Source: Caldisericum sp. (GTDB lineage Bacteria; Caldisericota; Caldisericia; Caldisericales; Caldisericaceae). Taken from it: a stretch of 52,763 bases of DNA. Location of the stretch: the NCBI GenBank assembly GCA_022759145.1, contig JAEMPV010000069.1:1-52763 (forward strand). The letters are read 5' to 3'. A program made the position numbers and the translations under genes. The notes under the pieces are model-generated. The model was not told the DNA's origin. It saw only the letters and a list, made by a program, of their open reading frames with translations, and did not search any database. Of this stretch, positions 44,467 through 49,268 are shown piece after piece; the first letter of the stretch is position 1, and each line of letters begins with the position of its first letter.

Positions 44467-44664
44467 ATGCAAGATTCAGAAATGTACATAAGGCTTTTAA
44501 AAGAAGTTATTGATAACAAATACAGGTTAATACAAGTCCTTATTGATGAAGGGCAGAAGTTGTACAAGTTAAATCCTACAGTGTATAACCCATTTTATGC
44601 AGCAGACTTTATTCGGAAAGTACAAGAATATCTTCTGAATAAGGAGAGCGAAAATAGAGAATAA
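44467..44664 (+). CDS. Small protein, possibly RNA polymerase omega subunit
   Basis: This 65-residue protein reads QDSEMYIRLLKEVIDNKYRL and onward, without cysteine or membrane helix. Omega subunits are small, contain a (D/N)xKY-L stretch, and often lie just before coaBC and priA. The DNKYRLIQVLIDEGQKLY segment and the position fit, but the usual Ala-Arg-Arg-Ala run of omega is missing. I therefore treat omega as a possibility only. The ATG 44467 follows AGAGGTGA. Its end overlaps coaBC by 11 bases. Confidence 0.7.
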   Translation: MQDSEMYIRLLKEVIDNKYRLIQVLIDEGQKLYKLNPTVYNPFYAADFIRKVQEYLLNKESENRE

Positions 44665-45817
44665 AGTTCTTCTTGCTGTAACAGGTGGCGTTGCAGCATA
44701 TAAATCTTTAGAACTTCTAAGGCTCCTTGTAAAGAGAGGATTAAAAGTAAAGGTAGTCATAACAAGGGGCGGAGAAAAGTTTGTTGCTCCTTTTTCCTTT
44801 TTGTCATTAGGTGCTGAAGAAGTTTTTACTGACGATGATCAGTTTTCTGTTGTTGAAGGCTCTTCTATACATCTTTATCTATCAAGGTGGGCTGATGTAA
44901 TTGCGGTAGTGCCTGCAACGGCTGATTTTATCGCAAAGGCAACTTCCGGTATTTCCGACAGTTTACTTCTCACAATACTCCTTGCTTCAAAAAAACCAAT
45001 TCTTATTGCCCCTTCTATGAATGAGAATATGTTTTTGCATCCTGTAACTCAAAAAAACATCGAGACCTTGAAGTCCTATGGCTACAGGATTATAGAACCA
45101 GACGAAGGATTTTTAGCCGACCTTGCTAAGGGTAAAGGTAGGTTAAAGGAGCCAGAATATATTTTAGAAGAAATACTTGTTGAATTATCTCCTAAAAAAT
45201 TAAGTGGCTTAAGAGTTCTTGTTACTTGTGGAGCAACAAGGGAATTTATAGACCCTGTAAGATTTATCACGAATGGCTCATCGGGCAAAATGGGTATTGC
45301 TTTTGCTAAGGTTGCAAGAAGGTTTGGGGCTTCTGTTACTCTTATAGCGGCAAATGTTAATGAAAATTTGCCAGGTGGTGTAAAAATTGTAAGAGCAGTA
45401 ACAACCGAAGATCTATATAATAGGGTCTTAGAAGAGTTAGAAAATGCTGACTTGCTTGTAATGGCTGCCGCACCTTCAGACTATAAACCAAAAGAATTTA
45501 ATGAAAACAAACTTCCCAAACTCGATACTCTTAATCTTGAACTTGTTTCGACCGTTGATGTTTTAAAAGAGGCATCAAAATACAAAGGTAGTAAGATTTT
45601 TGTTGGTTTTGCACTTCAAACTGATAACCTTATTGAAAATGCAAAAAGGAAGTTAGAAGAAAAGAACCTTGATTATATTGTTGCAAATGATACTTCGAAT
45701 ATTGGGGGTTATTACGGTAAAATTGTACTAATCGATAGGAATGGTATTTTAGGTGAATTTGAAGGAGATAAAGAAAGTATAGCAGAATTTGTGCTTTCTA
45801 AGATATTTAAATTTTAA
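44654..45817 (+). CDS. coaBC: Bifunctional phosphopantothenoylcysteine decarboxylase/synthase, apparent ATA start
   Basis: From codon 2 the protein reads ENKVLLAVTGGVAAYKSLELL, the normal CoaC flavin-domain start. HLYLSRWADVIAVVPATADFIAKATSGISD and APSMNENMF follow. The CoaB domain starts at about residue 185 with LRVLVTCGATREFIDPVRFITNGSSGKMG and contains KLPKLDTL and NDTSNIGG. It makes 4'-phosphopantetheine for coenzyme A. No ATG, GTG or TTG lies in frame between an upstream TGA (44636-44638) and the conserved core. The ATA at 44654 is 7 bases after AAGGAG and is the best start. The first TTG (44801) would delete about 49 conserved residues. Confidence 0.93.
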   Translation: MENKVLLAVTGGVAAYKSLELLRLLVKRGLKVKVVITRGGEKFVAPFSFLSLGAEEVFTDDDQFSVVEGSSIHLYLSRWADVIAVVPATADFIAKATSGISDSLLLTILLASKKPILIAPSMNENMFLHPVTQKNIETLKSYGYRIIEPDEGFLADLAKGKGRLKEPEYILEEILVELSPKKLSGLRVLVTCGATREFIDPVRFITNGSSGKMGIAFAKVARRFGASVTLIAANVNENLPGGVKIVRAVTTEDLYNRVLEELENADLLVMAAAPSDYKPKEFNENKLPKLDTLNLELVSTVDVLKEASKYKGSKIFVGFALQTDNLIENAKRKLEEKNLDYIVANDTSNIGGYYGKIVLIDRNGILGEFEGDKESIAEFVLSKIFKF

Positions 45818-47021: not shown

Positions 47022-49268
47022 ATGAGTAAGTTCTTGGGGGTCGCAATAGAAGATGCATATCTTCCTTACGATTTGCTCTTCTATGAGGCCCCCGATTCTT
47101 TAGAAGTAAATATTGGATCAAGAGTCTTAGTCCCCTTAGGTAAAAATAATAAGCCAAAACTTGCATATGTCTTAACAATATCTAATGAATTGCCGGACTC
47201 TGTAAAAAGTGAAGAAATAAAAAGTATAATTGAAGTTGTTGAAAAAAACCTCTTTTCTTTAAGTATTGCCTTACTTTTTCGATTTGTATCGCAAACATTC
47301 CTTATCCCTATACATAGCCTTTTAAATAAAATTTACGGGACATATACCGAAGGAGAGTTAACCCCTATTATAAAAGTTGTGGATCCTTATGCTTTATCAA
47401 ATTTTAAAAATTCGTTACATTCAGAAAAAAGAAAATTGATTTGTGATATTCTTATTGAAAATTCCAACATTACGCTTGAAAGATTAAAGCAAAAATCAAA
47501 AACAAAAATTGAATATCTAAAGAATTTTTTGAGAGAGCTTGAAAAGAAAAATCTCGTTGGACTTTCGTATAAGATTCCATACTCTTCAAATAAACTGCTT
47601 ACGATTGACAATTTTGAGTTATTTGAGAATATAATTCATAAAAAGGGCACAAAAAAGTCAGTGAGGGATTTATTACTTAGAATTCAAAAGAACAATGCCC
47701 TTCATTACAATGACGCAATATATAAGATTAGAGATGGGCTTGCGATAGTAGAAGAACTTTTGAAAGAGGGCGTTATAAAAGAGGTTGAGGAAAGTAATGC
47801 CGAACCTAAATTAAACACTTCAGCAAAAAGGCTTATTATTGATGGGGGAAGTTTAAAAGAAAGAATTTCTTACATTTCGAAAATTCTAAAAAATGATCTT
47901 AATGAAAATGGTGTTGCACTGATTATAGTTAACGAAAATTCTCTTGTAAGAATTTTAAGCGAATTGTATAAGGAAGAATTCCCAGGGGTTGTTTTTGGAA
48001 GTGTTAACAAGGAAAAAAATGAAATCAAAAGGCAGTTGCGATTAGGCAAGCGCATAATAATTTCTACACCTTTTTCTCTTTTTGTGGATATTCCCAACCT
48101 TCAATTCCTGATAGTTGAAGATGCTTCTTCAAAATACCATATTCCTCATGAGTTTCTTCCATTTGACACAAGAATTGTCTCTTACAAGAAAAGCGAACTT
48201 GAAAACATTTCTCTTATTCTATCCACCTATTCTCTCGATGATACTATGTATTTTTTTCATAAAGAAAAGAGTTTTGAATTAGTGAATCTGAAAGACCTTA
48301 AGAATCAAAATAAAAGGATTATTGATATGCGCAGGGAGGCAAAATCCGAAGCATTATCACCTCTTACATCGTATCTCGAAAGCAAAATAAGAAAAGCACT
48401 TTTGGAAGAGAAGAATGTTGCACTTATTCTTAATAGAAAGCCTTATTCCACGCTTATTGTTTGCACAGAGTGCGGGTATGTGCACAGGTGTCCAGTTTGT
48501 GAAAGTCCTTTATTTTTTGATAAAGAAAAAAACATCTTATTCTGTTCAACCTGCGGGCATGAGGAAGAGCCTATTGAAAGTTGTCCGCGTTGCGGAAGCC
48601 TGTCTCTTCTTTATCTTGGATACGGCATTCAAAAACTGTCTTATTCCTTAAAGTCTTCTTTTAAGGAAGCGAATCTCATTATTATAGAAAGTGGAGAAGA
48701 GACCATCTATGATTCAACTAAGTTTAAAAAGACTATTTTCTTAGGCACAGAGGCGATTTTTTCACATTTGAAGTTCGATGATGTTGCACTTGTTGCATTC
48801 GTTAGCGCAGATACTTTCTTGAATGGAGATGAATTTAATACATCATTTGAAGCCTTTAAATATTTAAGGCAATCTGCATTTGAAATATTCCCCAGGGATA
48901 TTTTTATCCAGACTTACGAAAAAGATAATTATATACTTGAAAACTTTAAAAAGGATAATGAACTTGGATTTATCAAAACCGAATTATCATTTAGATATGA
49001 ATTATATTACCCGCCATTTGCCTATTTATATGAAATTAGATTTAGTGAGCGGATTGATAGGGGCTTATTAAAACTTGATGATCCTGATGCAAAAGTTTAC
49101 GGACCTGCTGAGAGAATAGAGGATGGCAAAAAGTTCTATGAGATTAGTATAAGAACAAAATTAAAGCCAAAAGAATTTTACAATAGTTTAAGTGAGGTTA
49201 ATCAAAAGAGAATTAGATCTTTAAGAGTCTATCCTGCACCATCAATTGTAGATTACAAAGACTTTTGA
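47022..49268 (+). CDS. priA: Primosomal protein PriA homologue with degenerate helicase motifs
   Basis: This 748-residue protein has a PriA-like 3' DNA-binding start (GVAIEDAYLPYDLLFY, GSRVLVPLG), a winged-helix region, and the full zinc domain with eight cysteines between residues 481 and 524 (four CxxC pairs). The helicase motifs are decayed. The Walker A site is replaced by IIDGGSLKER (about 272-281), DEEH by EDAS (366-369), and the arginine-finger GRAGR block is absent. It probably cannot hydrolyse ATP. It may still recognise stalled forks and recruit proteins, as proposed for actinobacterial PriA. The coaBC-metK-priA context supports its identity. Confidence 0.9.
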   Translation: MSKFLGVAIEDAYLPYDLLFYEAPDSLEVNIGSRVLVPLGKNNKPKLAYVLTISNELPDSVKSEEIKSIIEVVEKNLFSLSIALLFRFVSQTFLIPIHSLLNKIYGTYTEGELTPIIKVVDPYALSNFKNSLHSEKRKLICDILIENSNITLERLKQKSKTKIEYLKNFLRELEKKNLVGLSYKIPYSSNKLLTIDNFELFENIIHKKGTKKSVRDLLLRIQKNNALHYNDAIYKIRDGLAIVEELLKEGVIKEVEESNAEPKLNTSAKRLIIDGGSLKERISYISKILKNDLNENGVALIIVNENSLVRILSELYKEEFPGVVFGSVNKEKNEIKRQLRLGKRIIISTPFSLFVDIPNLQFLIVEDASSKYHIPHEFLPFDTRIVSYKKSELENISLILSTYSLDDTMYFFHKEKSFELVNLKDLKNQNKRIIDMRREAKSEALSPLTSYLESKIRKALLEEKNVALILNRKPYSTLIVCTECGYVHRCPVCESPLFFDKEKNILFCSTCGHEEEPIESCPRCGSLSLLYLGYGIQKLSYSLKSSFKEANLIIIESGEETIYDSTKFKKTIFLGTEAIFSHLKFDDVALVAFVSADTFLNGDEFNTSFEAFKYLRQSAFEIFPRDIFIQTYEKDNYILENFKKDNELGFIKTELSFRYELYYPPFAYLYEIRFSERIDRGLLKLDDPDAKVYGPAERIEDGKKFYEISIRTKLKPKEFYNSLSEVNQKRIRSLRVYPAPSIVDYKDF

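Follow-up and report, generated by a model that had tools for sequence, protein, structure and literature searches.

Which codon initiates translation of coaBC in this member of the Caldisericaceae, and is the weak start that the sequence implies kept by selection? The window, i.e. the whole stretch of 52,763 nucleotides analysed, corresponds to contig C69 in a draft genome of 1.62 Mb and 161 contigs. The in-frame TGA at 44636-44638 is followed, in the coaBC frame, by ATA AGG AGA GCG AAA ATA GAG AAT AAA GTT CTT CTT, and inspection of the sequence revealed no ATG, GTG or TTG in this frame before the TTG at 44801. A sequence-only reading of this DNA had proposed that coaBC appears to start at the ATA at 44654, citing the lack of a standard codon between the TGA and this ATA, the well-spaced AAGGAG before it, the loss of the start of the flavin domain that initiation at TTG 44801 would entail, and an 11-base overlap with a small upstream gene. 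Each of these features was confirmed (Table 1). In profile searches, the product matched the TIGR00521 equivalog with a score of 388.3 bits (cut-off 219.7; model positions 4-391 of 392) and gave Pfam DFP and Flavoprotein matches. Its N-terminal sequence MENKVLLAVTGGVAAYK has the look expected of a CoaBC N-terminus. No Rfam elements were found around the coaBC start.

Table 1. Features at and around the predicted coaBC start in the window, with the ffh loci discussed in the text.
Feature	Position	Strand	Description
Small RNA polymerase omega (RpoZ)-like ORF	44467..44664	+	Alternative start GTG 44458; aligned with class orthologues
In-frame TGA	44636..44638	+	Upstream bound of the coaBC frame, read from the sequence
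Shine-Dalgarno AAGGAG	44641..44646	+	7 nt spacer to ATA 44654; spacing invariant in 8 genomes
Predicted ATA start codon	44654..44656	+	Sole near-AUG codon with correct Shine-Dalgarno spacing; ATA in 7 genomes, ATC in one
coaBC	44654..45817	+	387 codons, predicted ATA start 44654-44656, stop TAA 45815-45817; supported by TIGR00521, Pfam and the conserved ATA/ATC
TTG, first standard in-frame codon of coaBC	44801..44803	+	Codon 50 from ATA 44654; rejected as start
metK (putative)	from ATG 45834		Downstream of coaBC; identity read from translation alone
priA (putative)	47022-49268		Downstream of coaBC; identity read from translation alone
ffh loci with ATT start			L218, L219, L224, L227, L228, L229, L231

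Matches to coaBC were found in 21 of the 49 genomes of the class. The codon at the position of the window ATA is ATA in G003 (a complete genome of 1,558,103 bases from the same genus as the window, with 77% protein identity), G007, G008, G011 and G013, and ATC in G006; in G009, the ATA falls a codon further upstream when the proteins are aligned, with the Shine-Dalgarno (SD) spacing retained. The check put forward in the earlier reading, conservation of this codon in relatives, thus yielded ATA in seven genomes, the window included, and ATC in one, these eight genomes representing six genera of Caldisericaceae, and the ATG at this position that would have told against it was present in no relative examined. 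The distance from GGAG to the ATA or ATC is exactly 7 nt in all eight genomes, all of which lack a well-placed standard coaBC start; in G007, a single codon, AAG, separates an in-frame TAG stop from the ATA. In other members of the family, an ATG precedes the corresponding codon by two codons (G001 and G004) or by one or two (G014, G015 and G017), and GTG is found further upstream in G012; the sister family f3 has an upstream TTG, and a standard start was present at all 49 of the coaBC loci inspected in other phyla. Judging from these comparisons, the placement of ATA or ATC 7 nt after GGAG across six genera is more than chance. G006 and G011 are weaker witnesses for an AUH start, owing to a TTG at codon 6, although this codon is itself unlikely to serve as the start, given its distance of 22 nt from the SD and the part of the first strand that would be lost. 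On the CoaBC protein tree, in which the deep forks are weakly supported, the AUH label has to change three times or more; the AUH start could therefore be old in Caldisericaceae, with later losses.

The small ORF upstream from coaBC appears to encode an omega (RpoZ)-like subunit that has diverged strongly and whose sister-family orthologues match Rpb6/omega weakly. An f3 orthologue matched PF01192 with an E-value of 1e-5 (25.9 bits against a cut-off of 26) and, below the cut-off, the omega model NF001579 with an E-value of 4e-4; profile searches with the window protein gave no Pfam or NCBIfam family match. An NKY motif is invariant in the alignment of this ORF with its orthologues of the class. 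In the window, its TAA stop codon at 44662-44664 produces an 11 nt overlap with coaBC, and the overlap is kept, with the same +1 frame relation, throughout family f1 and the sister family f3, which makes translational coupling of coaBC to the omega-like gene likely. In Escherichia coli, IF3 overproduction also reduces re-initiation, with a smaller effect when an SD is present (PMC2268962).

The conserved overlap could also be read as the sign of a fusion, in which ribosomes translating the omega-like ORF would shift by +1 within the overlap to produce CoaBC. However, the overlap contains no shared slippery codon (AAT AGA GAA TAA, GAT AAA GAA TAA, GAT CAA TAA and GAT AAG GAA TAA are found), its codons vary by species and are mostly unable to re-pair at +1, and an ATG, GTG or TTG is present in sister species that share this overlap. 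The invariant distance between the SD and the ATA is, moreover, as expected of a start. The frameshifted fusion, which the sequence-only reading had named as an outcome contradicting its claim, thus left no conserved signal, and we regard it as improbable. An internal start at TTG 44801, with the first 49 codons untranslated, is more improbable still. TTG is a common bacterial start, and no other standard codon of the coaBC frame comes before this one, but neither G003 nor G007 has its equivalent: a standard codon is first reached at codon 50 in the window, 104 in G003, 123 in G007, 24 in G013 and G008, and 22 in G009. The flavin domain begins within codons 1-49, and these show purifying selection, the dN of 0.08 against a dS of 0.64 for codons 2-49 between the window and G003 indicating that they are selected as protein, and the controls from other phyla all have a standard start upstream. 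An error of assembly or sequencing concealing a true ATG might be suspected in a draft of 161 contigs, but the complete 1.56 Mb relative and six more genomes carry ATA or ATC at the corresponding place; because these genomes are independent, the ATA is not a sequencing error, and we consider the probability of this explanation negligible. Translation of coaBC thus very probably begins at AUA 44654, a very rare start codon, as judged from comparative evidence.

In the same comparison of the window with G003, the dS of codons 2-49 (44657-44800, plus strand), 0.64, is lower than that of the remainder of coaBC, 2.32, hinting at an extra constraint at the nucleotide level near the start.

The 3' end of the 16S rRNA of G003 carries CACCTCCTTT, and the commonest AGGAG-to-ATG spacing in this genome is 6-7 nt. 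SD duplex energies ranged from -8.2 to -11.8 kcal/mol in the coaBC AUH group and from +2.0 to -2.9 kcal/mol in the four AUG orthologues tested, with a value of -5.8 kcal/mol for one GUG orthologue; coaBC orthologues thus combine AUA or AUC with a fair SD, and AUG with a weak one or none. In the window and in G003, the SD energy of coaBC lies at the median of the G003 genes (0.495), making it average for the genome, and the extended SD known from Staphylococcus aureus was not found at coaBC in either; the SD is stronger in G008, G009 and G013. Compensation of the AUA by an exceptional SD was rejected, the coaBC SD being average in this genus. The window sequence allows pairing between the SD and the Leu-Leu codons of coaBC (44641-44675, plus strand), with the AUA left in a loop; AAGGAGAGC pairs with the GTTCTTCTT stretch, and the 90-nt fold has a z-score of -3.3. 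A conserved SD-hiding hairpin was likewise rejected, since the relatives, compared without reliance on the G009 fold, fold differently, and the z-score is near 0 for a shorter piece of the window.

Three tRNAs with a CAU anticodon are present in G003, one of which is initiator-like, with a GGG/CCC anticodon stem, whereas no UAU tRNA was found in this complete genome. The absence of such a tRNA led us to reject a special AUA initiator, and an initiating AUA has to be read by the ordinary initiator, with an A-C mismatch at the third position, a kind of pairing that IF3 disfavours. Under IF3 control, codon positions 1 and 2 must pair, and stronger third-position pairs are preferred, wobble pairs tolerated and weaker pairs excluded (PMC10158994).

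We scanned the stop-to-stop ORFs of G003 against 0.82 Mb of G007, which covers part of the genes (773 non-overlapping ORFs with a match), for genes in which, in both genomes, the N-terminus is conserved, no standard start lies nearby and an SD is followed at the corresponding place by a near-AUG codon, with a gap cut of 12 codons. Only three genes survived: coaBC (ATA in both genomes), ffh (ATT in both) and infC (ATT in G003, ATA in G007), the infC gap of 11 codons in G007 falling just under the cut. All other rows were rejected by eye as antisense, rRNA-region or extended-alignment artefacts. The recovery of infC indicates that the method finds real cases. This gene is present in the window genome and in 15 other genomes of the family, with ATT as the start in most family genomes and ATA in G007, in every case after GGAGGT (L099-L115). 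These AUU and AUA starts of infC suggest that IF3 discrimination against AUH codons operates in Caldisericaceae. In seven family genomes, among them the window genome (G000:C82), ffh (SRP54) starts with an ATT 7 nt downstream of AGGAG. In most of genus g7, ffh has an ATC at that place, preceded two codons earlier by a TTG, and in the sister families it has an ATG or GTG start.

Whether the AUA persists because it holds CoaBC expression low or makes it sensitive to IF3 is a separate matter from where translation begins. Such expression, suggested in the sequence-only reading, is plausible because infC in this family has a classical AUU/AUA start, and we lean slightly towards it. A single A-to-G change would produce ATG in place, yet none of the eight AUH genomes, in six genera, has made this switch, and the third base of the codon varies to C but never to G; this pattern fits selection for modest initiation, as far as sequence comparison goes. 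The start could instead be neutral, held by drift and by the overlapping tail of the omega-like ORF, an account that bears on the regulatory part only. The average SD and coupling may suffice for expression, some relatives have ATG or GTG, and the overlapping tail could account for part of the AT conservation. ATG would nevertheless be compatible with the overlap, as it changes only one residue of the upstream tail, and we judge neutrality possible, with clearly less than an even chance. More speculative, and rather unlikely on present evidence, is a small IF3-governed set in Caldisericaceae comprising infC, ffh (SRP) and coaBC, all with AUH starts; if it existed, export capacity and coenzyme A supply would follow free IF3 or initiation capacity.

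The explanation that we hold to be best, and that is probably correct as a whole, is that of a weak, IF3-sensitive start at AUA 44654 aided by the SD and by coupling. The ordinary fMet initiator tRNA (CAU) would read the AUA with a third-position mismatch, and the AAGGAG seven bases upstream would support initiation there. The AUA would render initiation weak and sensitive to IF3, like that of infC in Caldisericaceae, and translation of the omega-like ORF would deliver ribosomes to the site. The predicted outcome is that little CoaBC is made, in amounts depending on the upstream gene and on the level of IF3.

Gene finders restricted to ATG, GTG and TTG would truncate the essential CoaBC protein in Caldisericaceae. 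The AUA type of start is already known, whereas coaBC and ffh are new cases as far as our searches of the open-access literature reached; they add to the very few bacterial genes in which an AUH start is conserved in evolution and make IF3 control beyond infC testable in a deep-branching thermophilic lineage. In S. aureus, AUA starts have been proven for infC, ccpN and citZ, and an AUU start for cvfC1, those of ccpN, citZ and cvfC1 by Ribo-Ret and reporters; the native AUA/AUU starts give about 10% of the output of AUG reporters, and that of ccpN up to 30% in rich medium (PMC13009471). The resemblance lies in AUA/AUU starts on metabolic or regulatory genes (ccpN, citZ and cvfC1), those of ccpN and cvfC1 being conserved among relatives, whereas the SD is extended in S. 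aureus and average in coaBC, the genes and the phylum differ, and the coaBC case comes from sequence comparison. Streptomyces sigR has a GTC start repressed by IF3, as demonstrated by mutation (PMC5472188). It shares with coaBC a non-standard start outside infC and provides a model of IF3 control of one target, but its codon is GUC rather than AUA, it is a sigma factor gene, and the IF3 control of coaBC is one that we infer. The AUU start of pcnB in E. coli reportedly limits translation (Binns and Masters 2002, cited in PMC13009471), as the near-AUG start would in coaBC, albeit in another gene and with another codon. The textbook case remains infC, which starts at ATT in E. coli. It starts at ATC in Streptomyces (PMC5472188) and at AUA in S. 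aureus (PMC13009471). Unlike coaBC, infC is autoregulated by IF3; because the product of coaBC is no initiation factor, direct feedback is not expected for this gene, which, in addition, overlaps its upstream neighbour. The likeness between the two resides in the AUH codon with its third-position mismatch, the preceding SD and the essential nature of the gene.
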